From the NCBI RefSeq assembly GCF_009792355.1, contig NZ_CP047045.1, forward strand, positions 2,940,501-3,004,500: a DNA stretch of 64,000 nucleotides, read 5' to 3'. The notes under the pieces are model-generated. The model was not told where the DNA came from. It searched no databases and saw nothing but the letters and a program-made list of their open reading frames with translations. Made by a program: the position numbers and the translations under genes. This document shows positions 6,571 through 31,915 of the stretch, in pieces. The number at the start of each line of letters is the position of its first letter. The first letter of the stretch is position 1. Source of the DNA: Terricaulis silvestris. Lineage in GTDB: Bacteria > Pseudomonadota > Alphaproteobacteria > Caulobacterales > Aquidulcibacteraceae.

Positions 6571-6778
6571 CTGTGCGTCCTAGCCGAACATACGGCGCAC
6601 CCAATGCAGCGCCTCTTCGCGCCCGGGTCAAATCGCATACATGATCCGCCCTCCCTGCGGCTTGCGCGCGTGTCTCAATCGTATGCACGATTTGTCCCAG
6701 CTTGCGGCGCCGGGGCGGCTTGGCGGGGGCCCGCTGACAGCTACACCAGGACGTGTTTGCAGCGGGAGTTCCAGACCA
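6571..6778. promoter_or_regulatory. divergent promoter region with two 14-bp palindromic motifs
   Basis: The 208 bases lie between the start codons of two diverging catabolic operons. Two near-identical 14-mers are present: ATCGCATACATGAT at 6632-6645 and ATCGTATGCACGAT at 6678-6691 (consensus ATCGYATRCAYGAT), 46 bases apart. The second has perfect 5-base arms (ATCGT/ACGAT). Related words occur at other promoters of this region, which suggests a shared repressor or activator. No convincing sigma-70 boxes were identified by eye. Confidence 0.5.
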
Positions 6779-8857
6779 ATGAGCGTCGATTATGCCATTG
6801 AGGGCGACGTCGCGGTACTGACAATCAACCACCCGCCGGTGAACGCGCTCAGCCTCGTCGTGCGCGAAGGCTTGAAGGCAGGCATCCAGAAAGGTCTCGC
6901 CGACCAAAACGTGAGGGCCATCGTCGTGCTTGGCGGCGGCAGAACTTTTATCGCCGGCGCCGATATCAGTGAATTTGGCACCGAGAAGAGCCGCCAGGGT
7001 CCGCGCCTACAGGATATCCAGCGCGCGCTCGAAACAAGCCCGAAACCAACCGTCGCAGCGATCCACGGCACGGCGCTCGGCGGGGGCCTCGAGATCGCGT
7101 TGGCGTGCCACTCGCGCGTGGCGGTCGCCAGCGCCAAGCTTGGACTTCCAGAAGTGAAGCTGGGGCTCCTGCCCGGCGCCGGTGGGACCGTGCGCACACC
7201 ACGCCTCATCGGCGTCGAGGCCGCGCTCAGCCTCGTGACGTCAGGCGACCACATACCCGCCGCCAAGGCACATTCACTCGGCCTCGTCGATGCGATCATC
7301 GACGATCTGCGCTCAGGCGGCGTCGCCTACGCGCGTAAGCTTGTCGCGGAAGGCGCCCCGCCCCCTGTCATCGAGCGCAACGAAAAGGTCACTGGCGTCG
7401 ATCCCGCCCTCTTCCGCGACTTCCGCGAGAAGACGGCCAAGAAGTCTCGCGGCCAGCTGGCGCCGGCTAAGATCATCGATTGCATTGAGGCAGCCTGCAC
7501 CAAGCCTGCTGCCGAGGCGCTCGCGTTCGAAACCGCGGCGTTTCAGGAACTGTTCCAGAGCGACCAGCGCAAGGCGCTCATCCACTATTTCTTCGCCGAG
7601 CGCGAAGCGCGCAAAATTCCGGACATTCCGGAGAGCGTACAACCGCAAAAAATCGGCAGCGTCGCCGTTATCGGCGCCGGCCTGATGGGCGGCGGCATTG
7701 GCATGGTGTTCGCAAACGCCGGCATCCCGGTGACGCTGCTCGACGTCAGCGATGAGGCAGTCGCGAAAGGGCGCGGCATCATCGAGAAGAACTACGCGAC
7801 CTCGGTCTCGCGCGGGTCGATGACGCAGGCGCGCATGGATGACGCGCTCGACCGCATGCGCTTTGTGACCAAATACGAAGACATCGGCCCGGTCGATCTC
7901 GTTGTCGAAGCCGCCTTCGAGGACATGGACCTGAAGAAGAAGATTTTCACCGAACTCGATCGTGTCATGCCGGACAAGACGATCCTCGGCAGCAACACCT
8001 CGTCACTCAATATCGACGAGATCGCCTCGGCCACCAAGCGCCCGGACAAAGTCGTCGGCGTTCACTTCTTTAGTCCAGCCAACGTCATGAAGCTTCAGGA
8101 GAACGTGCGCGGCAAAGCGACGTCGCACCAGACGCTGGCCGATGTCATGGCGCTAGCAAAGGACATCGGCAAAGTCGCCGTGCTCGCTGGCAATTGCGAC
8201 GGCTTCATCGGCAATCGCATGCTGCAATACTATACGGGCGAGGCCGAGTTCATGCTCGAAGAAGGCGCAACGCCCGAGCAGATTGACCGCGTCGCGGAAA
8301 GCTTTGGCATGGCCATGGGCCCGCTTGCGATGCGCGACCTCGCCGGAATGGACACCAGCGTCCGCATCCGCGCCATCCGCCGCAAAACACTGCCGCCGGA
8401 TGAACGCATGACCGACATCGTCGAGCGCTTGGTCGAAGCGGGCCGCTACGGGCAGAAAACCGGCAAGGGCTATTATCGCTACGAAGGGCGCACCCGCATC
8501 GCCGATCCGGAAGCCATCGCCATCATCGAAGACGCCTCGCGCGCAGCTGGCGTCAAGCGTCGCGCGTTCACCGATGAAGAGGTGCTCTATCGTCTCTTCT
8601 TCCCGATGGTGAACGAAGCCGCCAAGGAACTTGAGGAAGGGATAGCTATCCGCGCCAGCGATATCGATGTGGTGTGGGTCAACGGTTACGGCTTCCCCGC
8701 CCATCGCGGCGGCCCAATGTTCTGGGCCGAGCAGGTCGGGCTCGACAAAGTGCTCGACACGTCGCGCGAGCTTGCGCCGAGGCGCGGCGTCCGCTGGGCG
8801 CCGGCGAAGCTGCTTGAACGCCTCGTCGCCGAAGGCAAAGGCTGGTCGAAGGCCTGA
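6779..8857 (+). CDS. bifunctional enoyl-CoA hydratase/3-hydroxyacyl-CoA dehydrogenase (FadJ/MFE-1 type)
   Basis: 692 residues from ATG 6779; an in-frame ATG at 6641 would add 46 residues covering the promoter motifs and is rejected. Residues 1 to about 190 are a crotonase domain with both catalytic glutamates (ALGGGLE and LGLPEVKLG). From about residue 291 comes the NAD-binding Rossmann motif VAVIGAGLMGGG, followed by VGVHFFSPANVMKL and two C-terminal 3-hydroxyacyl-CoA dehydrogenase domains. It should hydrate an enoyl-CoA and oxidise the product to a 3-ketoacyl-CoA. No FadA partner is adjacent; the thiolase at 16,039 could complete the cycle. Heads a plus-strand operon with an acyl-CoA dehydrogenase pair. 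Confidence 0.93.
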   Translation: MSVDYAIEGDVAVLTINHPPVNALSLVVREGLKAGIQKGLADQNVRAIVVLGGGRTFIAGADISEFGTEKSRQGPRLQDIQRALETSPKPTVAAIHGTALGGGLEIALACHSRVAVASAKLGLPEVKLGLLPGAGGTVRTPRLIGVEAALSLVTSGDHIPAAKAHSLGLVDAIIDDLRSGGVAYARKLVAEGAPPPVIERNEKVTGVDPALFRDFREKTAKKSRGQLAPAKIIDCIEAACTKPAAEALAFETAAFQELFQSDQRKALIHYFFAEREARKIPDIPESVQPQKIGSVAVIGAGLMGGGIGMVFANAGIPVTLLDVSDEAVAKGRGIIEKNYATSVSRGSMTQARMDDALDRMRFVTKYEDIGPVDLVVEAAFEDMDLKKKIFTELDRVMPDKTILGSNTSSLNIDEIASATKRPDKVVGVHFFSPANVMKLQENVRGKATSHQTLADVMALAKDIGKVAVLAGNCDGFIGNRMLQYYTGEAEFMLEEGATPEQIDRVAESFGMAMGPLAMRDLAGMDTSVRIRAIRRKTLPPDERMTDIVERLVEAGRYGQKTGKGYYRYEGRTRIADPEAIAIIEDASRAAGVKRRAFTDEEVLYRLFFPMVNEAAKELEEGIAIRASDIDVVWVNGYGFPAHRGGPMFWAEQVGLDKVLDTSRELAPRRGVRWAPAKLLERLVAEGKGWSKA

Positions 8858-8860
8858 TCC

Positions 8861-11139: not shown

Positions 11140-11142
11140 GAA

Positions 11143-12072: not shown

Positions 12073-12094
12073 TCCGTGGCGTCTCCGTGCTCGA

Positions 12095-12907: not shown

Positions 12908-12925
12908 AGTTCGTCTCCGTTGCGC

Positions 12926-14155: not shown

Positions 14156-14159
14156 CGCC

Positions 14160-15224: not shown

Positions 15225-16039
15225 CAGAAATACGTCTTGTCGGGAAACTCAGGCGTGGATTTCTCGCTCACTGCCTTGATCGCCGCGCGCGATTCCGCGC
15301 CTTGGAAATTGATCATCTCCAGCGCCGCCGAAAGATCGAACACAGCCTGCTGCTGGCGTAGCCAATGATTTAGAACGTACTTCGTCATGCGCACCGCGGT
15401 TGGTGCGCTGCTGGCAAGCTTCTCCGCAACCTCCAGCGCCTTCGCCTGCAAGTCTGCCGCATCGACGGCAAGTGACACCAGGTTGTTCCGTTCGGCTTCC
15501 TCACCCGTCATCGTCTCATTAGTCAGCAGATAATATTTGGCCTTCGCCATGCCGCAGAGCAGCGGCCAGATCAGCGCCGCGTGATCGCCGGCGGTCACGC
15601 CGATGCGCACGTGGCCGTCAATCAGCTTGGCCTGTTTGGCGGCGATCGAGATGTCGGCGAGCAGCGCCACCGCCAGGCCCGCGCCAACAGCGGGACCATT
15701 TATCGCCGAAACGATCGGCTTCGAGGCGTTGACCATCCCCATCACCAGATTGGTCGCGCTGCGGAAGCTGCGCGCGCCTTCCTGGTTAGGATCGAGCGCC
15801 CCTCCTATCGGCATCGAGGCGAAATCGCCGCCGGCGCAAAACGCCTTGCCCGCGCCCGTGATGATCGAAACGCGCGCTTCGGGATCCGCATCGATCGCCG
15901 CCCAAACCCTCTCGAGCTGATCGTGCCCCTCGGCGTCTAGCGCATTCATTTTCTCCGGACGATTGATCGTCACCCGCAACACGTGCGGCGCGGGCCGGTC
16001 AAACGCGAGCCGGTCAAAGGAGGCGTAACGATCCACCAT
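15224..16039 (-). CDS. enoyl-CoA hydratase/isomerase family protein
   Basis: 271 residues from ATG 16039, which overlaps the thiolase stop as TGATG; a GTG one codon earlier (16042) is also possible. Crotonase motifs FCAGGDFAS and INGPAVGAGLAVALLAD are present, but the usual two catalytic glutamates are replaced (GLA, and DGHVRIG). The loop reads GVTAGDHAALIWP instead of the PGAGGTQ seen in hydratases, a pattern of EchA-like paralogues with unassigned chemistry. It stands between the thiolase and an acyl-CoA dehydrogenase pair. Confidence 0.84.
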   Translation of the reverse strand: MVDRYASFDRLAFDRPAPHVLRVTINRPEKMNALDAEGHDQLERVWAAIDADPEARVSIITGAGKAFCAGGDFASMPIGGALDPNQEGARSFRSATNLVMGMVNASKPIVSAINGPAVGAGLAVALLADISIAAKQAKLIDGHVRIGVTAGDHAALIWPLLCGMAKAKYYLLTNETMTGEEAERNNLVSLAVDAADLQAKALEVAEKLASSAPTAVRMTKYVLNHWLRQQQAVFDLSAALEMINFQGAESRAAIKAVSEKSTPEFPDKTYF

Positions 16040-17220: not shown

Positions 17221-18221
17221 GCCAGTTCACCTTTGCTATCGCCGCGCGCGGTCAAGAACGGCCAGAACGCCTCGGCGCCGCGCGCGCATACGTCCGCACC
17301 GAGCGTTTCAGCCCAATAGCGTTCGCCGCCGAACTCCGAACGCCACGAAACCAGCCGGCGTGTGTATTTGTGCAGATTGTGCTCCAGCGTGAAGCCGATC
17401 GCGCCGTGGACCTGGTGCGCTGTCGAAGCGCCGATGCTGGCGGCCATGTTCGCTCGCAGCTTCGCAGCCGCGATCTCGAAACCGCCGTCACCGCGGTCAA
17501 TCGCCAACGCCGCGGCCTGCGCGGCGCAGTTCACGGCGGCCGCCTCTTCCGCGAACACCGCCAAGCTCTGCTGAACCGCCTGGAACTTGCCGATAGGCTT
17601 GCCGAACTGGCTACGCTCATTCGCATAGTCGATCGACATAGCGAGCGCCGTGTCGAGCGCGCCGGCGATTTGCGCGATGCGCACAAACGCCCCTACCGCG
17701 AACACGCTCATCTGCGCCTCGCCGCGCTCTATCGGGACGCCATCGCACTCCAGTACGTCTCGCGGTTCACCGGCTGGGTTCTGGCGCTGCTCGACACGCC
17801 CATCCGTTCTCGCGACGCGCGCGACCGCGCCATCAAGGTCGAACACAACCGCCCCCGCGTCGCGCCCCCATGGCGCCGCTTCAATCCGGCCCGAGAACCG
17901 TCCACGCGGATCAATGCTTCCTTTGGCGCGTGAGGCGATCGTGGTGACGCCCGCCACATCGGAGAACCCGGCGCTCTCGCAAAGCCACGCCGCGACAATC
18001 GCCTCTCCCACCGGCGCTGCAACAGCGTGCGCGCCGGCTAGGCGCATCACCGCGAACGCATCAACCCAATCGCCGCCGAAGCCGCCTCGACCTTCGCCGA
18101 CAAGCAAACCATCGAGGCCGATCTCGGCGACCTTCGCCCACCCATCGCCGCCATCGGCGCGCACTAACTCGGCGAACAGACGCTCCGCGGTTTCGAGCAG
18201 CAGGGGCTGGCTCTCGCTCAT
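17217..18221 (-). CDS. acyl-CoA dehydrogenase, short-type subunit (pair 4)
   Basis: 334 residues, the shortest of the set. The N-terminal domain is reduced and the middle domain shortened, but [21 protein letters not shown] and [21 protein letters not shown] are clear. Likely the FAD-poor partner of the product encoded at 18218. Overlaps both neighbours by four bases, so translation is coupled on each side. Confidence 0.86.
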
Positions 18222-19357
18222 CTCAGCCCCAATCCCCGCGCGATGATCCCGCGCAGAATTTCTCGCGTTCCACCGCGCAGCGAAAAAGATGGCGAAACTT
18301 GCAGCAAGAACGCCAGTGCCCGCGCGAAATCACTATCCGCGGCGAGATCGACGTCACTCGCGGCCTGCACCAATCGCGGCAGCGCCTGCTCGAAGCTGTT
18401 GCCAAGATCCTTGACGATCGCCGCATCCAGCGCCGGATCCTCCCCGCTCGCCAGCTTCGCAGCCGTCGATCGCGACATCTGCCGCAACGTCCACAACTCG
18501 GCCGTCAGCTGACCGATTAGCGCCGCGGCCGCCGACGCAGGGCTTGGTCCCGAGATCCGGATAAATTCCAGCAGCAGCGAGAGGCTTGAAAGATAGCGCT
18601 CCGGTCCGGAGCGTTCGAGCGACAATTCCGCCGTCACTTGCTTCCAGCCCGCGCCGTCATCGCCGACGCGCAAGCTATCGGGCACCAGCACATCATCGAG
18701 AAACACTTCGTTGAAATCGTGCCCACCGACGAGATCGATGATCGGGCGCACGCTGACGCCCGGCGCCTTCAGATCGATCAAAAACTGCGTCAACCCTTCC
18801 TGGCGCTGGCTATCCTCGCCGGTGCGCACCAGCGCGATCATGTAGTGCGCGTTGTGCGCGTTGGTGGTCCACACCTTTTGGCCGCTGATGCGCCAGCCTT
18901 CCGGCGTACGCCTGCCGCGCGTGCGCACCGAAGCGAGATCAGAGCCGCTGCCGGGCTCGCTCATGCCGATGCAGGTATAAAGCTCGCCGGCCGCCATGCG
19001 CGGCAGGAACTCTGCGCGTTGTCCTTCCGTACCATAGCGCAGCAGCAGCGGCCCGCCTTGGCGATCAGCGATCCAATGCATGCCAACAGGCGCGCCCGCG
19101 GCCAGCAACTCTTCCAGCACGATGTAGCGTTCGAGCGGGTGGCGCGCGCCGCCGCCATACTTCCTCGGCCAGATCATGCCGACATACCCGGCCTTGGCGA
19201 GCGCCTTGGTGAAGTCCGCGTCCGCAACCGCCCAACTGTTCGCGCGCGACGCCGCGTCAGCCTTGGGCTGATGCTTCGAGAGGAACGCACGCACCTCCTT
19301 GCGCAGCGCCGCCGCATCGACGGGCGGCTCAAACGGGCGGATGGAGAACGTCTGCAC
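18218..19357 (-). CDS. acyl-CoA dehydrogenase, long-type subunit (pair 4)
   Basis: 379 residues. Motifs YTCIGMSEPGSGSDLASVRTRG, VWTTNAHNAHY, and C-terminal [20 protein letters not shown]. First gene of the seven- or eight-gene minus-strand run extending to 11,143 (two acyl-CoA dehydrogenase pairs, thiolase, two crotonases, SDR). The 155-base upstream region separates it from a divergent hydratase operon. Confidence 0.88.
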   Translation of the reverse strand: MQTFSIRPFEPPVDAAALRKEVRAFLSKHQPKADAASRANSWAVADADFTKALAKAGYVGMIWPRKYGGGARHPLERYIVLEELLAAGAPVGMHWIADRQGGPLLLRYGTEGQRAEFLPRMAAGELYTCIGMSEPGSGSDLASVRTRGRRTPEGWRISGQKVWTTNAHNAHYMIALVRTGEDSQRQEGLTQFLIDLKAPGVSVRPIIDLVGGHDFNEVFLDDVLVPDSLRVGDDGAGWKQVTAELSLERSGPERYLSSLSLLLEFIRISGPSPASAAAALIGQLTAELWTLRQMSRSTAAKLASGEDPALDAAIVKDLGNSFEQALPRLVQAASDVDLAADSDFARALAFLLQVSPSFSLRGGTREILRGIIARGLGLR

Positions 19358-19512
19358 GTCGTGAAATTGCCCTCGCGTGCGATCCGAACAAAGCGATCAG
19401 AGCTCGCCCGCAGACGCTATCGCAGCCGCGATATGCCCTGCGCGTGGATAGCACGCCTGTCACGCCGTCGGCGAAGGTAGTAAGCACCAACCCAAGTCAT
19501 TGGAGCCGTCGC
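19358..19512. promoter_or_regulatory. divergent promoter region with ATCGC-N4-GCGAT palindrome
   Basis: The region lies between the minus-strand operon starting at 19357 and the plus-strand gene starting at 19513. It contains TATCGC-AGCC-GCGATA at 19418-19433, a perfect inverted repeat with 6-base arms, matching the architecture of the motifs in the 6571-6778 promoter. Promoter boxes were not resolved by eye. Confidence 0.45.
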
Positions 19513-20283
19513 ATGGGCATTGAGTACAGCGTTTCCGAGGGTGTCGCGACCATCACGATCAACCGCCCCGAGCGGAAGAACGCAATTCTGCTGGCGATGC
19601 GCACCGACATCCAGCACGCCTTCGAGAAGGCTCAAGACGACGATGAGGTGCGCGCAATTATCCTCACAGGCGCTGGCTCTGACTTCAGCGCCGGCGCCGA
19701 CATCAGCGAAATGGGCGGCGGCGGCACGCGCGGCGCGCTCATGCGCATGCGCCACATGCATCGCATGAGCCGCGCCGTGGCGATGACGAATAAGCCGGTA
19801 ATCGCCGCCGTTCGGGGCGTATGCATCGGCATGTCCTGGTCGCTCGCGTTGTCATGCGACATGATCGTCGCGGCCGAGGACGCGCGCTTTCAGTTCGCGT
19901 TCCGCCATATCGGACTTGCGCCCGACGGCGGCGCCGCCTTCTTGCTGACGCGCCATGTGCCGCTGCAGCGGGCCAAGGAAATTCTCTACTCGGGGCGCTT
20001 CGTCAGCGGCGCGGAAGCCCAGCAGCTCGGCTTGGCGCTTTACGCACTGCCCGCCGATGACGTGTTCGCCAAAGCGCAAGAGCTTGCACAGGGCTTCGCG
20101 CAATCGCCCACGATCGCGCTTGGCATGGCGAAACGGCTGCTCGACGCCGCGCCCGCGCAAACTTTCGAACAGGCGCTGGATTTCGAAGCCAACATCCAAC
20201 CGCTGATGGTGACGACCGACGATTTCAAGGAAGGCACAACCGCCTTCAAGGAAAAGCGCAAGCCCACCTATCGCGGGGGCTGA
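19513..20283 (+). CDS. enoyl-CoA hydratase/isomerase family protein
   Basis: 256 residues from ATG 19513. The frame is open to a GTG at 19444, but the added 23 residues are not crotonase-like and would cover the promoter. Motifs NRPERKNAI, FSAGADISEMGGGG and LAPDGGAAFLLTRHV: the acidic residue is Asp in APDGG, as in isomerase-type members such as PaaG, rather than the two-Glu hydratase pattern. It opens a three-gene operon with a DUF35 protein and a thiolase-like protein. Confidence 0.86.
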   Translation: MGIEYSVSEGVATITINRPERKNAILLAMRTDIQHAFEKAQDDDEVRAIILTGAGSDFSAGADISEMGGGGTRGALMRMRHMHRMSRAVAMTNKPVIAAVRGVCIGMSWSLALSCDMIVAAEDARFQFAFRHIGLAPDGGAAFLLTRHVPLQRAKEILYSGRFVSGAEAQQLGLALYALPADDVFAKAQELAQGFAQSPTIALGMAKRLLDAAPAQTFEQALDFEANIQPLMVTTDDFKEGTTAFKEKRKPTYRGG

Positions 20284-20286
20284 GCC

Positions 20287-21812: not shown

Positions 21813-21828
21813 AGCGCCCAAACCCGGA

Positions 21829-22635
21829 TCAGCCCATCATTTGCATCGGCACACGTTCCGCGACGCGTGTCGGCGCGTAGCGCTGCGCAGGCGCCTTCAC
21901 CGCCAAGCGCGCGACCGCGCCGCGCAGCAATTGCACGAAATACTCCGGTTGAGTCTCGTGCTGCTCCTGCGTCAGCAGCATGCCGAGCGCGAGACCATCG
22001 TCCTGGCCGCCGTGCGAAAGCAGCATGGCGATCATGCGCCCGCCATGCTCGCTGGCGGTGGCGAAGCCTCGCCCGCTGGTTTCGTCACACTCTTGCGCGG
22101 CGTCCTCGAACGACACGCGCTGCTCTGCTTCACTCTCCGCGTTGATGCGATGCAGGAGCTTGCGCATGTAGTTGCGGTCCATGGATGCCAGCACCGCTTG
22201 GCCCATCGCCGAATGAGTGAGCGACGCCGCTTCGCCCTCAGAGACGTTCATTTGCAGCCCTGGCGGCGCCACAGCGTGAATGTACTGGATCTCGAGGCCT
22301 ACGCGATTTCCGAGCACGACAGTCGTGCCAGCTTCGCGCGCGAGTTCATCCATCGCCGGCAGCAAACGCCCTTCGCGAAACAGATTGGGCTGTACCCAAG
22401 CGCCAAGCACGGCGACGCGCGCCGTCGGCCGATATGTTCTCGCGGAGCGATCGCGCGTGAGATAACCGAGCGCGACAAGGCAACTCAGCAGCTCAGACGT
22501 GCTCGACTGCGGGTAGCCCATCGAACGGGCGATATCCATCACGGTGGCCTCGGCGCGGCCGCCTCGGAAATACTCAAGCACTTCAAGCGCGCGCTGCGCT
22601 GACTTGATCTTCTTGGGGTCCAGAGACCGTGCCAT
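21829..22635 (-). CDS. IclR family transcriptional regulator
   Basis: 268 residues from ATG 22635, which is preceded at seven bases by a good GGAGG ribosome site (22642-22646, complement); an ATG further upstream at 22677 would put the palindrome inside the gene. N-terminal winged helix (about residues 10-65: SAQRALEVLEYF, ARSMGYPQSSTSELLSCLVALGYL) and C-terminal GAF-like effector domain (VLGNRVGLEIQYIHAV, SLTHSAMGQAVLASM). Probably senses a pathway intermediate and controls neighbouring catabolic operons; which ones is inferred only from position. Confidence 0.9.
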   Translation of the reverse strand: MARSLDPKKIKSAQRALEVLEYFRGGRAEATVMDIARSMGYPQSSTSELLSCLVALGYLTRDRSARTYRPTARVAVLGAWVQPNLFREGRLLPAMDELAREAGTTVVLGNRVGLEIQYIHAVAPPGLQMNVSEGEAASLTHSAMGQAVLASMDRNYMRKLLHRINAESEAEQRVSFEDAAQECDETSGRGFATASEHGGRMIAMLLSHGGQDDGLALGMLLTQEQHETQPEYFVQLLRGAVARLAVKAPAQRYAPTRVAERVPMQMMG

Positions 22636-22739
22636 TTTTTTCCTCCCATGGCATTTATTATGACGGCATGTTGTCATAACAACTCAAGGGACGGCAAGAG
22701 CTTTCGACAGATTTTTTGAATGGGGCGCCGTTTTTCGAA
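22636..22739. promoter_or_regulatory. IclR promoter with TTATGAC-N8-GTCATAA inverted repeat
   Basis: A perfect 7-base inverted repeat (22658-22664 and 22673-22679, 8-base spacer) lies 23-44 bases upstream of the IclR start, in AT-rich sequence unlike its surroundings. Its position fits an autoregulatory operator or the core promoter. The GntR gene upstream ends at 22740, so the interval is otherwise empty. Confidence 0.55.
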
Positions 22740-23486
22740 CTAAACGATCCGGGGCTTCGCGACGAAGTCGATGGAATACCGGTACCGTTCGGGGTGGTTG
22801 CGCGCGACAATCATTTCTACCGGCGCGCCAGTCATGTCGTAATAGATCCGAGTCACCTTCAGCACCGGTGTATTTTCCTGCAAGTTCAAATACTTCGAAG
22901 CAATCGGCCCCGCGATGTCGGCCTCCAGAAACTGCTCGGCGCGCACAACCCGTGCGCCTGCTTTGCCCTCGACCATTCGGATCACTGGCAGCTTCTGGCC
23001 AACGTCGACGGGTTTGATCTTCCGCCCGATCGCCAAGGGCAGATAGAGATTGTGGTATCCGAGCGGGGCATCTTCCAAAAAACTTAGCAAATCCAAGCGC
23101 GTGCAGGCTTCTCCTGGCGCCAGGCGCAAGCCACGAACCGCCTCGTCCGGCGCTTGAATCTCCTGCATGGAGAGCACCTTCGTGGCCAGCGCGCCGGCCG
23201 AAGCCAGAAATTCGTCCAACGAACCCGACAAGCGCACGGACCGCACACCTGATTCCGGCGGCGGCGTCACAAATGTGCCAACGCCGCGGCGCTTGGTAAT
23301 CAGCCCCTCGGCGATCAGCGTTTCCAGCGCACGACGCACGGTGATGCGGCTCACGCCGTATTCCCCACAGATTCGCTCCTCAGTAGGCAGCGCTTCGCCG
23401 GCCTTGAATTCACGCGCGTTGATGCGCTCGCGCAGATCCTGCTCAAGCTGATGATAAAGCGGAACCGGGCCGGGACTGAGCGTCAT
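22740..23486 (-). CDS. GntR family transcriptional regulator (HutC/UTRA type)
   Basis: 248 residues from ATG 23486; the frame stays open to 23636 and a GTG at 23498 is also possible, so the start is uncertain. N-terminal winged helix with PLYHQLEQDLRERI, LPTEERICGEYGVSRITVRRAL and the wing KRRGVGTFV, then a C-terminal UTRA effector domain (from about residue 85) ending in YYDMTGAPVEMIVARNHPERYRY. HutC-type regulators usually repress nearby catabolic genes until a small acid binds. The gene diverges from the acyl-CoA ligase at 23676 and lies just upstream of IclR, in the same direction. Confidence 0.9.
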   Translation of the reverse strand: MTLSPGPVPLYHQLEQDLRERINAREFKAGEALPTEERICGEYGVSRITVRRALETLIAEGLITKRRGVGTFVTPPPESGVRSVRLSGSLDEFLASAGALATKVLSMQEIQAPDEAVRGLRLAPGEACTRLDLLSFLEDAPLGYHNLYLPLAIGRKIKPVDVGQKLPVIRMVEGKAGARVVRAEQFLEADIAGPIASKYLNLQENTPVLKVTRIYYDMTGAPVEMIVARNHPERYRYSIDFVAKPRIV

Positions 23487-23675
23487 TTGCTTTCGCACGA
23501 TCTTCTCGTCTCTCACGCCTGTAGGAGTGACTACGCTATCGCATGCCTCGCGTCGAGCCGACGTGCGCCAGCCATCCATCGCATCAGCGATTGGCGCTCC
23601 GACGCCAATCGCGCCAAGCTTGGCGCGATCATGCAACGAATTGGTGAAACCTTGCGCCGAACAAGCTGAAGTCGC
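23487..23675. promoter_or_regulatory. divergent GntR/ligase control region with nested palindromes
   Basis: Contains ATCGC-ATCA-GCGAT at 23578-23591, then GCGATTGGCG-ctccga-CGCCAATCGC (perfect 10-base arms, 23587-23596 and 23603-23612), immediately followed by the 16-base palindrome GCGCCAAGCTTGGCGC at 23611-23626. A further copy of the core (CGCCAAGCTTGGCG) lies at 23714-23727 inside the ligase gene. Together these give six CGCCAA/TTGGCG half-sites within 140 bases, a strong candidate for cooperative binding by the GntR protein. Confidence 0.6.
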
Positions 23676-25151
23676 GTGACCTTTCCTGACCTGCTCCTTG
23701 ATTCATCAGGCGCCGCCAAGCTTGGCGCGCCGCTTGCGCTCCTTCTCGGGGCGCAAGCACAACGCGCGCCCACGCGTGACGCGCTGACGCTGCCCGACGC
23801 CCAGCTCACGCGGCTTGATCTCGACCGGCGCTCCAATCAGCGCGCACGCCAACTCGAACGAGCCGGCGCCGGTCACGACGACATTGTCCTCATCGCGATC
23901 CCCAACAGCGCCGCCTACTACGAGTTCGTCTACGGCGCCTGGAAACTCGGCGCGACGCCCATGCACGTCTCGCATAAGCTGACGCCAAGGGAGTTCGCCG
24001 AAATCGTCGCGCTGGCGGAGCCAAAGCTCGTGATCGACGCCACCTCGCCGCTGCTTGATCGGCAACGCGATTCACGCTCCGACGCGCCGCTTCCGTTGCG
24101 CATTGCGACGCGATGGAAAATCTCCACCAGCGGGGGCAGCACGGGCCGACCGAAACTCATCGTTGACCCCAATCCGGCGCTATGGAGCATCGAGAAACAA
24201 GCGCACCGCCGCCATCCGGACGCAACCATCATCAACCCCGGTCCGCTCTACCACAGCGCCCCGTTCGGCCAGATGATTCCAGCGCTCTGCGAAGGCGCGC
24301 ACGTCGTCGAGATGGGTAAATTCGATGCCGAGAGATACATAGCGCTCGTCGCGCGCCACCGCGCCACATGGGCTTATCTAGTGCCCACAATGATGGCGCG
24401 CATTGCCAACCTGCCGCCTGAGACACGCGCGCGTTACGACATTTCCTCGCTCGACACCGTCGTCCACATGGCCGCGATCTGCCCGCCGCCGGTGAAACGC
24501 GCATGGATCGCCATGCTCGGCGCCGACGCCATCTGGGAGATCTATGGCGGCACCGAACGCATCGGCTCCACCATCATCGGTGGCGCGGATTGGCTCGACC
24601 GTCCGGGCTCGGTCGGGCGCCCGCGCGAAGGCATCGAAGCCCGCGTGCTCGACGAGCATGGCTCAGAGCTTCCGCCCGACGCGGTTGGTGAAATTTATTT
24701 TCGGCGCGCAGGCGGACCCGAATCCACCTTCCGCTACATCGGCGCTGACGTACGCCAACGTGGCGATTGGGCCTCGTTCGGCGATCTGGGCTGGCTCGAT
24801 CAGGACGGCTACTTGTTCATCGCCGACCGCCGCACCGACATGATCGTCAGCGGCGGCGTCAATCTCTATCCCGCCGAAATCGAAGCGCAAATTGATGCGA
24901 TCCCCGGTATTGCCGACAGCGTCGTCGTCGGCGCGCCACACGCGGATTTGGGCGCTGTCCCGCATGCGTTCGTTCAAGTGCGAGAGGCGTCGAAATGGAG
25001 TGAAATGCGCCTTCTCAATGCGCTACGCGAACGGCTCGCCCCCTACAAATTGCCCCGTGGCGCAACATTCATAGAGGAATCCATCCGCGACGACTCCGGC
25101 AAGATTCGCCGCGTCGCTTGGCGCGACCGCCTGATCGCTCAATCGAGCTGA
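23676..25151 (+). CDS. acyl-CoA ligase (AMP-forming), bile-acid/coumarate-CoA ligase-like
   Basis: 491 residues from GTG 23676. Motifs in order: phosphate loop STSGGSTGRPKLIVD near residue 150, EIYGGTERIG near 288, the hinge DLGWLDQDGYLFIADRRTDMIVSGGVNLYPAEIE at about 370-402, and the terminal lysine in DDSGKIRRV. The motif set is complete, so activity is likely. The SGGST form of the phosphate loop and compact size recall BaiB-type bile acid-CoA ligases. Its 3' end overlaps the end of the convergent MaoC gene by 13 bases. Confidence 0.88.
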   Translation: MTFPDLLLDSSGAAKLGAPLALLLGAQAQRAPTRDALTLPDAQLTRLDLDRRSNQRARQLERAGAGHDDIVLIAIPNSAAYYEFVYGAWKLGATPMHVSHKLTPREFAEIVALAEPKLVIDATSPLLDRQRDSRSDAPLPLRIATRWKISTSGGSTGRPKLIVDPNPALWSIEKQAHRRHPDATIINPGPLYHSAPFGQMIPALCEGAHVVEMGKFDAERYIALVARHRATWAYLVPTMMARIANLPPETRARYDISSLDTVVHMAAICPPPVKRAWIAMLGADAIWEIYGGTERIGSTIIGGADWLDRPGSVGRPREGIEARVLDEHGSELPPDAVGEIYFRRAGGPESTFRYIGADVRQRGDWASFGDLGWLDQDGYLFIADRRTDMIVSGGVNLYPAEIEAQIDAIPGIADSVVVGAPHADLGAVPHAFVQVREASKWSEMRLLNALRERLAPYKLPRGATFIEESIRDDSGKIRRVAWRDRLIAQSS

Positions 25152-25561: not shown

Positions 25562-25563
25562 CT

Positions 25564-26007: not shown

Positions 26008-26010
26008 GGC

Positions 26011-27231
26011 TCAGCCCCAAGCCACCGGCAGCTTCACTCTGCCCCAATGCATCCACGACCCGATGCGCTCCGTCGGCCCATCGAGCCGCAGCTTCGGCAG
26101 CGCCTTGGCCAACTTGCCGAACGCGATCTTTGCCTCCAGCCGCGCCACCGGAGCGCCCAAGCAGAAGTGGACGCCCGCACCGAAGGAGAGATGCTTGCGC
26201 GCCTCGGTCAACGGCCGATCGATTCGGAACGTCTCCGCGTCCTCGAACACGGCTGGATCGCGATTGGCGCCGACGATCGAGAACATCAATTTCGATCGCT
26301 CCGGTAATTCCTCGCCGTGCATCGCGACCGGGCACAAGCTGGTGCGGAAGTGCGCCAGCACTGGCGGATCGAAGCGCAAGCTTTCCTCCACGGCATTTTC
26401 CACGAGTTCTGGCTCTTGCTTCAGGCCTTCCCACAGCGCCGGCGTCTCCAGTAAACGCCACATCAGGTTGGCAATCAGCGAAATCGTCGTCTCCTGCCCG
26501 CCAGTGAGGAAGGCGAGGCAAACATTTAGCTGCTCGTCGCGCGTCAGCGGCCGCCCTTCCACGCGAGCGATCAGCGTTCGCGACATGAAATCGTTCGGCA
26601 ACACCTCGCCCAGCGCCGACAAATCCGGCTCAGTTATTCCAGCCGCGTCCAGCTTGGCCTGACGGGCGTCCAGGTGGCTGTTGAAGTGGGGATATATTTC
26701 CTTGAGGATCGGTTCGAACGAGCCGGGTTTCGGATCGTGGAACAACATATCCTGTAGGATATCGGCCCAGTGCTTGTAGTGGAGATTGTCCGCCTCAGGC
26801 GCGCCTAGCATCACGCACATGATCCGCGACGGCAGCGGCAGCGCGAAGAGATCATGAAAATCCCCGCGTCCTTCTGGCATGGCGAGCATCTTGGCGATCA
26901 GTTCGTCGCAAATGCGCTCGATATCGCCTTCGTACGTTTTCAACTGGCGCGGCGCGAAGCCGGACGCGAGCGACGCGCGAAACGCCATGTGAAACGGCGG
27001 GTCCGATTTAAAGCCGACGTCGCTGATCGTATCCTTCGCCGCGTTGCCGAAGCGAAAGCTCCAAGTCGGATTGTCCTGGAGGATTTCCTCCTTGATTTCG
27101 CGATAGTCGCTGGTGATCGCGAACTTGAAATCCGGGCCGTCATAACGATGAAACGGACATTTCGCGCGCAGCTCGGAATAGGCCGCGCCCGGATTCTCCA
27201 GCGTCTCCGGCGACATCGGATCGAATTTCAT
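26011..27231 (-). CDS. cytochrome P450
   Basis: 406 residues, soluble class I bacterial P450. Visible elements: I-helix GGQETT (residues 244-249), the ExxR pair Glu283-Arg286, and the heme loop [12 protein letters not shown] with axial Cys357. It needs a ferredoxin and reductase; no ferredoxin gene is seen nearby. Within an operon of MaoC hydratases, an aldo/keto reductase and SDRs, it probably hydroxylates the substrate, for example a terminal methyl or ring carbon, before CoA activation. The start overlaps the aldo/keto reductase stop as ATGA. Family number cannot be given from sequence alone. Confidence 0.93.
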
Positions 27232-28268
27232 GCCTGACCTGCGGTGGATGCTGCTAGTCCGTCTTTAATCTTGGCGTCCGTGAGGCGAGCGTTGAACCAA
27301 TGGGGATAGATCGCAGTCGGCGCCGTCAGCTCATCTAGCTTCGCCGTGATCGCCGGATCGAGCTTCACGGCCGCCGCGCCTATATTGTCTTCGAGCTGGC
27401 TGAGCTTCGCTGAGCCGATCAGCACGCTCGTCACCACGGGCTTGGTCAGCAGCCACGCCAGCGCCAATTGCGCCACCGTGCAGTCGGCGCGCTGAGCCAA
27501 CGGCCGCATCGCGTCCACCAGAGCGAAGCCCTTTTCGCGATCGAACGGCACGATATCGAACGCCGCGTGGCGGCCCTCTTTTGTGATGTTCTCGCGCGTA
27601 TACTTGCCGCTCAAAAATCCTCCGCCAAGAGGGCTCCACACCAGCATGCCCAACCCGCCGGCGCGAAGGAATGGCGCCAGATCGTGTTCCACTTCCCGGT
27701 TGAGCAGTGAATAGTGCAGCTGCCCCGAGACGAACCTCGCCCAACCGCGCTCCTTCTGCATTTGCAACGCGGTCGCCGCGCGCCACGACGCCCAATTCGA
27801 AAAGCCGAGGTAGCGAACCTTGCCCGCCCGCACGAGCCGATCGAACGCTTCGAGCGTCTCTTCCAGCGGCGTAAGCGCGTCTTCCTTGTGCGCTTGGTAA
27901 AGGTCGATGTAGTCGGTGTTGAGCCGCTTCAGGCTGGCTTCACACGCCGCAATCACATTGTGACGCGAAAGTCCCGCATCCGTGATGGCCGGGCCAACAC
28001 GAAAGCCAAGCTTGGTCGCGATCACGACATCCTTGCGGCGCGCGCCGAGCGCCCGACCCAGCATTTCCTCGGACTGCCCGCCCGAATATACATTCGCCGT
28101 GTCGAAAAAGTTGATCCCGGCCTCGATCGCCGCATTGACCATCACGGTCGCGCCATCCTGATCGACCTTGCCCAGAGCGGCGTTCACGGTGTTCACACCG
28201 AAAGTCATCACGCCCATGCACAGGCGCGAGACGATCAATCCCGTATCGCCGAGTTTTGAGTACTGCAT
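27228..28268 (-). CDS. aldo/keto reductase
   Basis: 346 residues from ATG 28268; the open frame to 28451 would overlap the NmrA-like gene and is not conserved-looking. TIM-barrel aldo/keto reductase with tetrad elements Asp and Tyr in FFDTANVYSGG, Lys in IATKLG, and His in LYQAHKED, plus the NADPH-binding C-terminal IGSAKLSQLEDN. It may interconvert a keto and hydroxy group or an aldehyde formed after P450 oxidation. A 14-bp palindrome lies about 53 bases upstream, inside the 3' end of the neighbouring gene. Confidence 0.9.
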   Translation of the reverse strand: MQYSKLGDTGLIVSRLCMGVMTFGVNTVNAALGKVDQDGATVMVNAAIEAGINFFDTANVYSGGQSEEMLGRALGARRKDVVIATKLGFRVGPAITDAGLSRHNVIAACEASLKRLNTDYIDLYQAHKEDALTPLEETLEAFDRLVRAGKVRYLGFSNWASWRAATALQMQKERGWARFVSGQLHYSLLNREVEHDLAPFLRAGGLGMLVWSPLGGGFLSGKYTRENITKEGRHAAFDIVPFDREKGFALVDAMRPLAQRADCTVAQLALAWLLTKPVVTSVLIGSAKLSQLEDNIGAAAVKLDPAITAKLDELTAPTAIYPHWFNARLTDAKIKDGLAASTAGQA

Positions 28269-28318
28269 GCGAGCGATAGTGCCCACGCAACCGCGCATCG
28301 CGCCAGCGCGACGCCACG

Positions 28319-29218
28319 TCATCGCATCGGCGATGCCTGACGCCCCTGCAACCAGCGAGAAAATGGCGTCGGTTGCAAGCCAATCTCTTCCATGTGGGAA
28401 GGGCGCGCAGGGTAGCCGAACTCGTTCAGCCACTGCTGACTCAGCACCCACCCCGCACTCCGCCCTCGCGCGATCTCCGCGTCCGGCGATTTGGTTTCTG
28501 CCACGACCGGCGTGCCGCTAGCGGCTGTGAGCAGCGCCGCGACCTGCGGCAGCGTCAACACGTCACCTGCAAGCTCCAGCGCGCCTCCGGAAAAGCGTGA
28601 TGGTTTGGCGATTGCGGCCGCAACGGCGCTGCCGATGTCATCGGCGGCGACCAGCGCGAGCGGTGTATCCTCGCATATCGCTGAAACAATTCGCCGCTCT
28701 GACAGCTCAGGGAACATACGCTCCACCTTGGGCGACGCGAAGTTCTCCATCATGAACGCCGGACGAAGCACGATTGTAGCTGCGAAGCCGGCGCCAAGCG
28801 CCATATCCTCCACGGCGGCCTTGTTGTCCCAATACACGTCGTCCCATTGCGCGCCCCGCCATGTGTTCCGATCATCGACACCAGACACGGATGTTTGCAC
28901 GAACGTGCGGACACTTGCGGCTAGCCCGGCCTCTATCAAAGCCTGCGCATGGATTCGCTCCGTCGAAGCGCTGCCGGGGTTGTAGAGCTGAACTGAAAAG
29001 ATCGCGTCCGCGCCGCCAGCGGCGGCGGCCAGAGAGTCCGCATCGTCGAAAGAACCCTCAACCAGCTCCACGCCGGCGCCAACAAGCGCTTGGGCGCCCG
29101 GGCTCGATGCATTTCTGACCAACGCGCGCACGCGCATACCATTCGCCAGAAGCGCGCGCGCCACAGCGCCGCCCTGGGCGCCAGTTGCCCCTGTCACCAG
29201 AACGCGTGCAGTGGTCAC
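28319..29218 (-). CDS. NmrA-like NAD(P)-binding protein
   Basis: 299 residues from GTG 29218. Atypical extended SDR with N-terminal VLVTGATGAQGGAVARALL; NmrA/HSCARG family features include RALVRNASSPGAQAL and the hydrophobic IVLRPAFMMENF. Members act as redox sensors or as reductases of quinones and related compounds; there is no canonical YxxxK, so enzymatic activity is uncertain. One base separates it from the upstream SDR stop. Confidence 0.85.
   Translation of the reverse strand: MTTARVLVTGATGAQGGAVARALLANGMRVRALVRNASSPGAQALVGAGVELVEGSFDDADSLAAAAGGADAIFSVQLYNPGSASTERIHAQALIEAGLAASVRTFVQTSVSGVDDRNTWRGAQWDDVYWDNKAAVEDMALGAGFAATIVLRPAFMMENFASPKVERMFPELSERRIVSAICEDTPLALVAADDIGSAVAAAIAKPSRFSGGALELAGDVLTLPQVAALLTAASGTPVVAETKSPDAEIARGRSAGWVLSQQWLNEFGYPARPSHMEEIGLQPTPFSRWLQGRQASPMR
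28320..28335. promoter_or_regulatory. candidate operator CATCGC-ATCG-GCGATG
   Basis: A perfect 6-base inverted repeat with a 4-base spacer overlaps the stop end of the NmrA-like gene and lies 52-67 bases upstream of the aldo/keto reductase start. It matches the ATCGC-N4-GCGAT architecture found at other promoters in the first 32 kb. Because it falls partly in coding sequence it may be accidental. Confidence 0.3.
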
Positions 29219-29219
29219 G

Positions 29220-29894
29220 CTAGACTTGCCCCACCACAGGAACCAGTGCGCCCGTGATCGCGCGCGCTTCCGCGCTCGCCAAGAACAGCATCACCGCGGC
29301 CAGGTCATCCGGCGTCACCCATTTGGAAAAGTCAGCATCCGGCATGTCCTTGCGGTTGGCTGGCGTGTCGATGATCGAGGGCAGCACGGCATTGACTGTC
29401 ACGCCGCGCCCCTTGAGTTCCTCGGCCAGACTTTCCGTCAGCCGCATCACACCGGCCTTCGACGCCGCATAGGCGCCCATGCCGGCGGCGGCCTTCAGCG
29501 CCCCGGCAGCGCCAACATTGACGATGCGCCCGTCACCGCTCGCCAGGAGGTGGGGCAACGCCGCCTTGCATGCTGTCGCCGCTGTCTTCACGTTGAGATT
29601 GTAGAGCACGTCCCAGCCCGCGAGATCGCCGTCTTCCAAGGTCTGCCACCGAAAGCCGCCTGCGATATTTAGCAGTGCGTCGAGCCGGCCGGTCTTGGCC
29701 TTCGCCTCATCCATCGCCTGCTTCGCCGAGGCGAGGTTAGTGAGATCGACATGGCCAAACCGAAGGCCAGGTCCTTCCGGCAGAGCCGTTACATCGACGA
29801 GCACTACTGTGGCGCCGCGCGCCTCCGCGACGCGGCCGACCGCGCTACCCAACACGCCGCCGCCGCCCGTGATCACCACCGTCTTGCCCTGCAT
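29220..29894 (-). CDS. SDR family oxidoreductase
   Basis: 224 residues from ATG 29894; a longer frame to 29999 would cover the divergent promoter. Rossmann motif VVITGGGGVLG, LNIAGGF at the NAG position, and catalytic Tyr-Lys in GAYAASK. Slightly short for a classical SDR (usually about 250) but with all core elements. First gene of a six-gene minus-strand operon: SDR, NmrA-like, aldo/keto reductase, P450 and two MaoC proteins. Confidence 0.88.
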   Translation of the reverse strand: MQGKTVVITGGGGVLGSAVGRVAEARGATVVLVDVTALPEGPGLRFGHVDLTNLASAKQAMDEAKAKTGRLDALLNIAGGFRWQTLEDGDLAGWDVLYNLNVKTAATACKAALPHLLASGDGRIVNVGAAGALKAAAGMGAYAASKAGVMRLTESLAEELKGRGVTVNAVLPSIIDTPANRKDMPDADFSKWVTPDDLAAVMLFLASAEARAITGALVPVVGQV

Positions 29895-29968
29895 GTCCCC
29901 TCGCGTTTTCACCCGCTCATCTGACGCAATGACGCCAGTGACGCCAGAGCCGTTCCATCGCATATGAG
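29895..29968. promoter_or_regulatory. divergent promoter with TGACGC repeats and ATC-N8-GAT site
   Basis: Only 74 bases separate two divergent start codons. Three TGACGC words start at 29922, 29930 and 29939, the last two as the direct repeat TGACGCCAG. At 29955-29972 lies CCATC-gcatatga-GATGG, which contains ATCGCATATGAGAT, a weaker relative of the recurring 14-bp motif, and overlaps the ligase start codon, a position expected for a repressor. Confidence 0.4.
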
Positions 29969-31897
29969 ATGGCGCGACCGCCGGACAAACCCGCGCCATT
30001 GGCCGGCGTCGGGCCGCACGCTACCGTGACAAATGTGACCAACCTCGCCGATCCAAGCGCGTCCGTCCCGACACGACCGGTGCGCCTCGCGCCCAAATCC
30101 GGCCGCGCCGAGATGCGATCGGACGGCGCAATCGTGCTCACGTCCACGGCGCCGCTAGCGCCCTATCCTCAGAGTTGGAACGCCAAGATCGAGCAATGGG
30201 CGCAAGAAGCCCCCTCACGGGTTTTCTTGACAGAATCGGATGGCGCTGGAGGCCGCCGCACAATCACCTATGCCGAAACGCTCGCAGCCGTAGAGAGCAT
30301 CGGCGAAGGCCTGCTCAACCTCGGTCTTAACGCGGAAACGCCGCTCGCTGTTCTCGCCGAGAACAGCATCGAATGCGCGCTCATCACTCTCGCCGCCATG
30401 TGGGTGGGTGTACCCGCGTCGCCGGTGTCGCCGCCCTACGCGCTCAAAGCCACGGACTTCACCAAGCTGTCTGGCGTGTTCGCAGCGCTCCAGCCGGGCG
30501 CAATCTACGTCGCCGATGGCGCGCGCTATGGCGCCGCCATCCAAGCCGCCGCGCCTGTTGACGCCGTCATCATTTCCGGACGCGCGCCGATACCCGGGCG
30601 CGAGACAATCGCGTTGACCGATCTGCGAAATTCGACGCCGAGCGCGCGCACAGCGAAAGCCAATGCGGCCGTCACCGGAGACACGATTGCGAAGATACTG
30701 TTCACGTCCGGCTCCAGCGGCGCGCCCAAGCCGGTAATCCTCCCGCATGGCATGCTCGCCGTGAACCGCCAGCAATGCGCCCAGGCTTACGCCTTCTTGA
30801 ACGACGGGCCGCCGGTCATGGTCGATTGGCTGCCATGGCATCACACCTTCGGCGGCAACAACAATCTGGGTCAAATCCTCTGGTGTGGCGGCGAACTACA
30901 CATTGATGATGGCGGGCCAACGCCCGCCGGCATTGGCCGAACGGTTGAGTTGCTCCGCGCTCATCCGCCGACTTTCTACATCAACACGCCAGGCGCCTTC
31001 GAAGCGCTCTTGCCGTATCTGCGCAATGACAAGCATTTCGCACAACGTTTTTTCTCGCGCCTGCAATTGCTCCAGTACGGCGGCGCCTTGCTCGCCCAGC
31101 ATGTCTGGCGCGCGATTGATGAGATCGCCGTCGCCACAACCGGTGAACGCATCCTCATGGTCTCCGGTCTCGGGTCCACCGAATGCGGCCCGACGCCGGT
31201 GCAAAGCACGTGGGAGCAGCATCGCAAACCGGAAGCCGGGCTGCCGTTAGCTGGCGTTGAAGCAAAGCTGGTCCCAGTGGAAACGACATGGGAGCTTAGA
31301 TTGCGAGGCCCGTGCGTCACGCCCGGCTATTGGCGCCGTCCAGATCTCACCGCCGCCGCGTTCGACGATGAAGGCTTCTTCAAAACCGGCGACGCCGTCC
31401 TCCCACTCGACCCTGAAGATTTCTCTCAAGGCCTGCTCTTCGATGGGCGCATCTCGGAGAACTTCAAGCTCAGCTCCGGAACCTGGGTGCAAGCGGTCGC
31501 GCTGCGCACGCGCCTGCTAGCGGCTCTGGCGCCGTTGGTGAACGACGCCGTGATCACTGGACACAACCAAGGCCAAGTCGGCGCCATCGCCTTCCCCGAC
31601 ATGAACGTCGCCCGCAAAATCGCGAGCGCGCATACGGACTTGACGGATGAAGAGGTGCTCGCCGCCCCGGCGCTTCGCGATTGGGTGCAAACGCGGGTCA
31701 GCACGCTTGCCGGCAGCGCAGTCGGCGCCAGCGAACGTATCGCCAGGCTTGCCCTCGAAACGGAGGCGCCGTCCTTCGACAATGGAGAACTCACCGACAA
31801 GGGCGCAGCGGCTTCGCGCATTGTCCTGTCGCGGCGTATCGACGTCGTGACGGCGCTACACGCTGTGACGCCGCCTGCCGCCATCTTCATCGCGTGA
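29969..31897 (+). CDS. feruloyl-CoA synthase-like acyl-CoA ligase
   Basis: 642 residues. The order and wording of motifs match the feruloyl-CoA synthase family: APYPQSWNAKIEQWA near the N-terminus, ILFTSGSSGAPKPVILPHGML (phosphate loop, near residue 250), VMVDWLPWHHTFGGNNNLG, SGLGSTECGP near 405, and a C-terminal FDNGELTDKG followed by an arginine-rich helix. These enzymes activate aromatic or other bulky acids to CoA thioesters. ATG 29969 gives a 45-residue leader before homology begins, so a later start cannot be excluded. Diverges from the P450 operon. Confidence 0.88.
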   Translation: MARPPDKPAPLAGVGPHATVTNVTNLADPSASVPTRPVRLAPKSGRAEMRSDGAIVLTSTAPLAPYPQSWNAKIEQWAQEAPSRVFLTESDGAGGRRTITYAETLAAVESIGEGLLNLGLNAETPLAVLAENSIECALITLAAMWVGVPASPVSPPYALKATDFTKLSGVFAALQPGAIYVADGARYGAAIQAAAPVDAVIISGRAPIPGRETIALTDLRNSTPSARTAKANAAVTGDTIAKILFTSGSSGAPKPVILPHGMLAVNRQQCAQAYAFLNDGPPVMVDWLPWHHTFGGNNNLGQILWCGGELHIDDGGPTPAGIGRTVELLRAHPPTFYINTPGAFEALLPYLRNDKHFAQRFFSRLQLLQYGGALLAQHVWRAIDEIAVATTGERILMVSGLGSTECGPTPVQSTWEQHRKPEAGLPLAGVEAKLVPVETTWELRLRGPCVTPGYWRRPDLTAAAFDDEGFFKTGDAVLPLDPEDFSQGLLFDGRISENFKLSSGTWVQAVALRTRLLAALAPLVNDAVITGHNQGQVGAIAFPDMNVARKIASAHTDLTDEEVLAAPALRDWVQTRVSTLAGSAVGASERIARLALETEAPSFDNGELTDKGAAASRIVLSRRIDVVTALHAVTPPAAIFIA

Positions 31898-31901
31898 CGC
31901 T

Positions 31902-31915
31902 ATCGCATTGACGAT
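31902..31915. promoter_or_regulatory. candidate operator ATCGCATTGACGAT
   Basis: This 14-mer lies 71-84 bases upstream of the VOC gene and matches ATCGYATRCAYGAT at 12 of 14 positions. It sits in the 88-base gap after the ligase, which suggests that the VOC gene has its own promoter under the same control as the catabolic operons. Confidence 0.35.

Follow-up and report, generated by a model that had tools for sequence, protein, structure and literature searches.

A short palindrome, ATCGY-N4-RCGAT (here called motif B), marks a catabolic regulon of about twenty operons that extends from about position 2,873,500 to about 2,972,400 of the genome, in a lipid-degradation island of around 100 kb. 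The reading of motif B as the mark of a regulon rests on its regulon-like distribution and on its conservation in relatives. The island codes for two neighboring regulators, of which the IclR-family protein probably reads motif B, while a second palindrome, element A, follows the presence of the GntR-family protein. Anonymous acyl-CoA genes are thereby gathered into a defined regulon, for which there are about twenty candidate operators, a pair of candidate regulators, and a proposed wiring, and the motif B operator can be used to search other genomes for this pathway.

Motif B in the window

The window, i.e., the whole stretch of 64,000 nucleotides that was analyzed, covers positions 2940501-3004500 of a single contig of 3,864,763 bases. 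A preliminary description of this DNA had listed seven palindromes of the form ATCGY-N4-RYGAT, and all seven were found (window coordinates):

6632..6645, plus strand: motif B site between an acyl-CoA dehydrogenase gene (5389-6570, minus strand) and a FadB-like gene (6779-8857, plus strand)
6678..6691, plus strand: second motif B site, in the divergent promoter shared with 6632
19419..19432, plus strand: motif B site between an acyl-CoA dehydrogenase operon (18218-19357, minus strand) and a hydratase operon (19513-20283, plus strand)
23578..23591, plus strand: motif B site between gntR (minus strand) and an acyl-CoA ligase gene (23676-25151, plus strand)
28321..28334, plus strand: motif B site 52 bp upstream of an aldo/keto reductase-P450 operon (27228-28268, minus strand)
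29957..29970, plus strand: motif B site between an SDR gene (29220-29894, minus strand) and an acyl-CoA ligase gene (29969-31897, plus strand)
31902..31915, plus strand: motif B site upstream of a glyoxalase-family gene (31995-32411, plus strand), at the right end of the regulon

Genes were called with a simple codon-usage script, and start codons and short genes are approximate. By these calls six of the seven sites are intergenic, as had been described, the exception being 28321, which overlaps the stop codon of an NmrA-like ORF (28319-29218, minus strand). Four divergent intergenic regions together hold five sites (6632 with 6678, 19419, 23578, and 29957), and the genes that flank 28321 and 31902 run in tandem. 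Site 29957 shares 2 bp with the called start codon of the ligase ORF at 29969, a start that is uncertain. The original formula suits all the listed sites except 29957, which ends in GAGAT, and the list itself was incomplete, as the window contains eight exact matches to ATCGY-N4-RYGAT, including two unlisted ones at 15702 and 48938, both within genes. Sites 6632 and 29957 depart from the TCG-N6-CGA consensus core, and the spacers of the motif B sites are mixed. With at most one mismatch, ATCGYNNNNRCGAT has 42 matches in the window versus 19.9 expected, a number reached by none of 100 shuffles. Some operons of the region have no motif B site of their own, iclR among them.

Distribution in the genome

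The position of the matches sets the island apart from the rest of the genome. There are 23 places with ATCGCATNNNNGAT genome-wide; seven of them fall within the island (104 kb, 2,870,001-2,974,000), six in noncoding DNA plus site 28321, versus 16 outside it, all in coding frames (Fisher p 7e-5). The pattern ATCGYN4RCGAT is found at 135 places per strand of the genome, and 28 of the first 30 by position are coding. A first matrix, built from the seven window sites and run over 204 kb around the window, recovered additional high-scoring promoter sites to the left of the window (genome coordinates):

2873544: motif B site at a TetR gene, followed by a TonB receptor gene; the farthest site, 67 kb past the left end of the window
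2878758: motif B site, MFS / acyl-CoA ligase
2881440: motif B site, hydratase-like (by similarity) / flavin oxidoreductase
2895518: motif B site, DUF1214 / SDR
2907255: motif B site, TonB plug protein / PaaK-like ligase
2915363: motif B site, MFS / MFS
2931189: motif B site, AraC / protein without family match, then a LuxC-resembling protein

The site-to-called-start gap is 50 to 135 bp in 28 of 33 site-gene rows. A PDB search with the protein at 2931313 gave no match.

A second, symmetrical matrix was built from these seven sites together with the seven of the window and applied with a threshold of 13. Its matches in the island were 19 intergenic and 10 genic. The remaining 100 kb of the 204 kb yielded 7 and five 20-kb stretches sampled elsewhere yielded 9, all of these genic. 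Expressed by length, these are 19 intergenic matches in 5.9 kb of intergenic island DNA versus none in the 21.6 kb sampled elsewhere, and the intergenic share of matches is 19/29 in the island versus 0/16 outside (p 1e-5). The island count is partly circular, as 13 of its 19 intergenic matches are training sites of the matrix. Column-permuted matrices (n = 200) gave a mean of 0.09 and a maximum of 5 intergenic island matches. This is a lenient control, because ATCG and CGAT are common words and in genes and control stretches, too, the real matrix gives several times as many matches as permuted ones (in those of the relatives, 20 genic matches versus 2.6 and 3 intergenic versus 0.5), so the intergenic share was taken as the fairer measure. 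The pattern read backwards was a poor control, owing to its dinucleotide content.

Between 33 and 64 kb of the window, the matrix at a score of at least 13 found no intergenic and two genic matches, in agreement with the earlier remark that the sulfur and galactan promoters there lack the motif. Control of the whole region by a single regulator, also suggested then, is well supported for the catabolic operons; the proposed limits of 32 kb do not hold, since the farthest site lies well beyond the left end of the window. The scan for matches in genes or upstream of unrelated genes and the comparison with the same promoters of close relatives, both named in that description and both run in part, came out on its side: the matches examined elsewhere are almost only inside genes, and in relatives about one ortholog row in two has a site in the corresponding promoter.

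Conservation in relatives

Orthologs of the window GntR were located by a search of named contigs in six of them, belonging to a Hyphomonadaceae MAG, an uncultured Sphingomonas, Novosphingobium cyanobacteriorum, Sphingomonas yantingensis, Novosphingobium taihuense, and Sphingobium cyanobacteriorum. A search of the order returned matches in 23 of 299 genomes, 17 of which showed only 32-37% identity, and placed orthologs in five genomes besides our own, one being the same Hyphomonadaceae MAG. In the annotated plasmids searched there was one distant match only (32%).

The sequences of relatives were kept out of matrix training. Around the GntR orthologs, in a total of 433 kb of eleven genomes that have both regulators (G510 and G650 among them), we counted 60 intergenic and 27 genic motif B matches, versus 3 and 20 in 200 kb of control stretches from the relatives (p 2e-6). 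The clusters are uneven, with 8 of 9 matches intergenic in G025, 7 of 8 in contig 24 of G146, and only 3 of 12 in G077. Gene by gene, a site scoring at least 13 between 300 bp upstream of and 40 bp inside the ortholog start was kept in 47 of 91 ortholog rows of site-led genes versus 15 of 127 rows of other island genes. Some of these rows are duplicates, either because L064 and G256 belong to a single genome or because a promoter with two sites was entered twice; a hand count without them changes the former figure to 40 of 81, with the 127 other-gene rows left unreduced.

Conservation also varies among promoters. Both sides of the 19419 promoter counted, the site is kept in 13/13 rows. The 28321 site is kept in 3/3, two of which come from the same genome. 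For the 6632 promoter, a site of at least 13 precedes the FadB-like ortholog in 4/7 rows and the dehydrogenase ortholog in 1/1; for the 23578 promoter, it precedes the gntR ortholog in 7/12 rows and the ligase ortholog in 3/3. No site was kept in the ortholog rows of the 29957 promoter (0/2), the ligase at genome position 2878899 (0/2), the GMC oxidoreductase at 2882839 (0/6), or the gene at 2931313 (0/4). The hydratase at 2924465 has none of at least 13 in its eight rows, each of which nevertheless shows a weaker match (9.9 to 12.8) at a comparable position. The 31902 promoter contributed no ortholog row.

Regulator genes and element A

Two regulator genes and a second palindrome lie side by side in the window:

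21829..22635, minus strand: IclR-family regulator, proposed reader of motif B (HTH_IclR PF09339, 3.4e-14; IclR_C PF01614, 7.4e-10)
22671..22682 (genome 2963171-2963182), minus strand: element A, TTGTTATGACAA, proposed GntR operator, in the gap between gntR and iclR
22740..23486, minus strand: GntR/UTRA (HutC-type) regulator, proposed reader of element A (GntR PF00392, 2.3e-21; UTRA PF07702, 1e-21)

The first protein combines an N-terminal IclR HTH with a C-terminal IclR effector domain and the second a GntR winged HTH with a UTRA domain, the architectures by which they were classed as IclR and HutC-type, respectively. The genes are neighbors, and across the 299 genomes of the order their orthologs are confined to an identical set of 6, so co-occurrence in the order cannot separate IclR from GntR as the reader of motif B.

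Palindrome A follows the presence of GntR. An exact copy of TTGTYATRACAA occurs only once in the 3.86-Mb genome, in the iclR promoter, and four further places match with one mismatch. In a first set, element A was found within 250 bp upstream of iclR in 12 of 13 GntR-positive genomes versus 0 of 13 unpaired promoters (p 3e-6), the lone miss being G304, with 9/12 letters. The unpaired promoters were those of ten IclR-only genomes, the second G418 homolog, and two paralogs in GntR-positive genomes. The ten genomes came from the Sphingomonadaceae, where at the thresholds used an IclR homolog is present in 13 of 347 genomes and GntR in 3 of 347; a search of these ten at 1e-15 detected GntR homologs of 28-33% identity in G464 and G398 and none in the other eight. 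Of three genomes that came later, G848 and G863 have both GntR and element A (12/12 and 11/12 letters) and G894 has neither, so that at 10 or more of 12 letters, a threshold chosen after the first comparison, the element precedes iclR in 14/15 GntR-positive genomes versus 0/14 GntR-unpaired promoters. Four of the 12 A-positive promoters of the first set score 10 or 11, near the range that shuffled sequence reaches (up to 9/300).

The reader of motif B

The IclR protein (21829-22635) is likely to be the reader of motif B. We favor it over GntR because element A tracks GntR and motif B occurs at iclR in genomes without this GntR. In three such genomes (G398, G464, and G418), motif B scores 13.9, 17.2, and 16.8, respectively, in the iclR promoter; the scores are 10.8 to 11.7 in G645, G478, and G524 and at most 10.5 in the other eight, which makes only 3/14 GntR-unpaired promoters with at least 13 and 6/14 with at least 10.8. 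Matches around iclR genes without this GntR are intergenic in 5 of 7 cases in G626 and 3 of 6 in G894. Against this assignment stand our own iclR promoter, which has no motif B site, the pooled ten IclR-only neighborhoods, where 17/53 matches are intergenic versus 3/23 in controls (p 0.10; none in G645 and G478), the low intergenic share of G077 (3/12), and a TetR gene in the iclR neighborhood of G626. By eye, a classical IclR-type site, GTTCGA-N4-TCGAAC or a near copy, is present in the GntR-unpaired iclR promoters of G418, G645, G478, G524, and G894. It shares TCG-N6-CGA with motif B, which is compatible with one protein reading both, but in those five genomes motif B may have another reader than IclR.

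The recognition helix of IclR, PQSSTSELL, is identical in all the GntR-positive IclR proteins seen and also in G626, G475, and the G418 clade. Its variants are PQSSASELL (G398, G464, and G525), PQSSTSALL (G500), and PQSSTSVLL (the second G418 protein). Covariation of the helices with A or B was tried as a discriminator and proved uninformative, both helices being nearly invariant. In our own alignment PQSSTSELL has Ser and Glu at two positions with published preferences for even-length motifs, one strong and one weak (PMC8222616). When mapped on a tree of 26 IclR proteins, the state of being GntR-positive requires three changes, which suggests that the GntR-negative iclR cases probably do not go back to one single event.

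The reverse assignment, in which GntR/UTRA would bind motif B and regulate its own operon together with the catabolic operons while IclR would bind TTGTTATGACAA and control itself, appears unlikely. Autoregulation is common, and this arrangement fits it. As it would predict, motif B precedes gntR at 10 of 12 loci (9 of 11 distinct genomes), none of at least 12 lies upstream of 19 more distant GntR homologs, and our own iclR promoter has element A without motif B. However, gntR lacks a good site in G077, G025, G510, G650, and G863, the last three being later genomes that lower the link; motif B occurs at iclR homologs of genomes without this GntR and does not contain GT-N4-AC. On the side of element A, its absence from all 14 GntR-unpaired promoters implies that IclR does not need it, and IclR would be left with one exact site in the genome. 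GntR was the preferred reader of motif B at an early stage and lost ground once element A was seen in the iclR promoter and found to track GntR. The local IclR or GntR protein had been named as a possible regulator in the preliminary description; IclR is the one favored here, and GntR, tracked by a different palindrome, is probably not the reader of motif B.

It is quite improbable that a third protein reads motif B, be it the AraC-type (genome 2930173-2931177) or the TetR-type regulator (2872881-2873534) or one encoded elsewhere; the candidates compared were those encoded within the island. Sites adjoin both genes (2931189 and 2873544, respectively), and an AraC homolog was detected at 1e-20 in 9 of the 12 genomes searched, but these homologs are at most 45% identical and absent from G222, G300, and G302, which have motif B sites, and TetR homologs occur in only 3 of the 12, including our own, the others at 29-33% identity. 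Both regulators were set aside as weakly conserved. Finally, that motif B is a functionless by-product of the words ATCG and CGAT in a GC-rich genome has a practically negligible probability, for although the many, mostly coding, genomic matches and the excess over permuted matrices in control stretches are what it would produce, we reject it on the intergenic position of the island sites and their conservation in the promoters of relatives.

With IclR as the reader of motif B, dimers of this protein would be bound at about twenty sites, a single site frequently serving two divergent start codons, and would switch together the genes for uptake (TonB receptors and MFS transporters), activation (acyl-CoA ligases), and breakdown (paired acyl-CoA dehydrogenases, hydratases, thiolases, the OB-fold protein, and P450). 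The site before gntR would put this gene under IclR control, and GntR, binding TTGTTATGACAA between the two genes, would set the level of iclR, so that motif B before gntR and element A before iclR would form a loop in which each regulator adjusts the gene of the other. The effectors are probably pathway acids or CoA esters.

Comparison with known systems

Even-length IclR operators of group 1 have the consensus NGTYCRAW4TYGRACN (PMC8222616). Motif B resembles them in being a palindrome with the YCR-N6-YGR core, here TCG-N6-CGA, in serving catabolic regulons, and in its position upstream of start codons; it differs in lacking the outer GT/AC, in a four-base center that is not A/T-rich, and in having C or T beside the spacer where the group 1 operators have A (PMC8222616). 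In most HutC-type GntR operators, four bases separate GT from AC (PMC4494728). Element A (TTGTYATRACAA) has this GT-N4-AC arrangement and adjoins the gene of a HutC-type protein, whereas the consensus of motif B has no GT and AC at this spacing; element A is found at one promoter only in our own genome.

Among sphingomonads, PheR of Sphingobium is an IclR-family repressor of phenanthrene catabolism (PMC13273656), similar to the proposed system in the control of a hydrophobic-substrate pathway by this family in a sphingomonad, but the shortest sequence it is stated to recognize is GCAACG, found upstream of a single operon (PMC13273656). In Caenibius tardaugens, estradiol catabolism is repressed by the TetR-type protein EdcR, which is likewise encoded inside the cluster it controls and has a palindromic operator and divergent operons, but it belongs to a different family than IclR and its operator, TnnCnnTACnAnTnGTAnnGnnA, is longer than motif B and unrelated to it (PMC8700777). 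Sphingomonad regulators of steroid and PAH degradation (PMC12882949, PMC8700777, and PMC13273656) were discarded as a match, as other operators are described for them. A literature search by topic, with few subscription journals covered, gave no match for such regulators, for this regulator pair, or for a catabolic cluster with sulfation genes.

Pathway content

The island encodes pairs of PimC/PimD-like dehydrogenases, a P450, and an OB-fold ChsH2_C protein next to a Thiolase_C_1 thiolase, a set that we take to resemble the side-chain catabolism of steroids or similar molecules. With regard to a steroid cluster, the proteins of our own genome that were scanned showed only generic families.

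Other members were unexpected: a PAPS-reductase-domain protein, an EF-Tu-like/APS-kinase fusion, an inositol-monophosphatase-like protein, three sulfotransferases, a sulfatase, and a TauD dioxygenase. The phosphatase-like gene is the first of this series and has a motif B site at 2886641 (score 16.2) 84 bp upstream, and its G146 ortholog keeps one. The other two sulfotransferase genes belong, by gene order, to runs that start at weaker sites (13.9 and 13.3). The regulon seems to include sulfate-activation and sulfotransferase genes, which is unexpected for lipid catabolism, and a gene list with these functions points to a degradation route. We tentatively propose that interlocked IclR (acting through ATCGY-N4-RCGAT) and GntR (through TTGTYATRACAA at iclR) may govern a 100-kb pathway common to bacteria of two alphaproteobacterial groups, our organism's own family and the sphingomonads, in which a dedicated supply of the sulfate donor PAPS and several sulfotransferases under the same operator would make sulfation of the substrate or of an intermediate a step of degradation, a combination that we regard as possible rather than probable. 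Homologs of the PAPS-reductase-domain protein and of the fusion are found in the iclR neighborhood of G626, at 76 and 69% identity, respectively.

Further genes of the catabolic island

The lipid-type catabolic island, whose proposed operator is the palindrome ATCGY-N4-RCGAT (B), also holds genes for sulfate activation (phosphatase-like, a PAPS-reductase domain and an APS-kinase fusion), three sulfotransferases and one sulfatase, all left of the window.

Genome 2886739-2890393, 2890646-2891674, 2897891-2899051, 2902457-2904751 and 2918962-2920131 (stretches L054 and L055): sulfur-gene set

These genes apparently share the operator of the catabolic island. Another B site precedes a pair of genes.

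Genome 2931313-2934041 (L056:10813-13541): two-gene pair downstream of a B site

The 461-aa product resembles the long-chain acyl-CoA reductase LuxC (3e-38, under the curated cut-off). For the 448-aa product, searches of Pfam, NCBIfam and the PDB found nothing within the cut-offs applied. Novosphingobium cyanobacteriorum encodes relatives of both proteins, with 55-63% identity.

Surroundings of iclR in relatives

Near the iclR homolog of relative G626 lies a gene whose product belongs to a family that includes ketosteroid dehydrogenases, which hints at a steroid-type substrate.

G626, L176:6569-8257: FAD_binding_2 protein, 562 aa

Two kinds of palindrome were seen by eye 5' of iclR. The classical IclR-type palindrome, or a near copy, occurs in G418, G645, G478, G524 and G894.

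L163, L166, L168, L170, L203 and neighbours: iclR promoters with a GTTCGA-N4-TCGAAC-like palindrome

The other, around GTGTCGACAC, is found in G077, G025, G398, G464 and G525, and by the same inspection its carriers include genomes both with and without the GntR.
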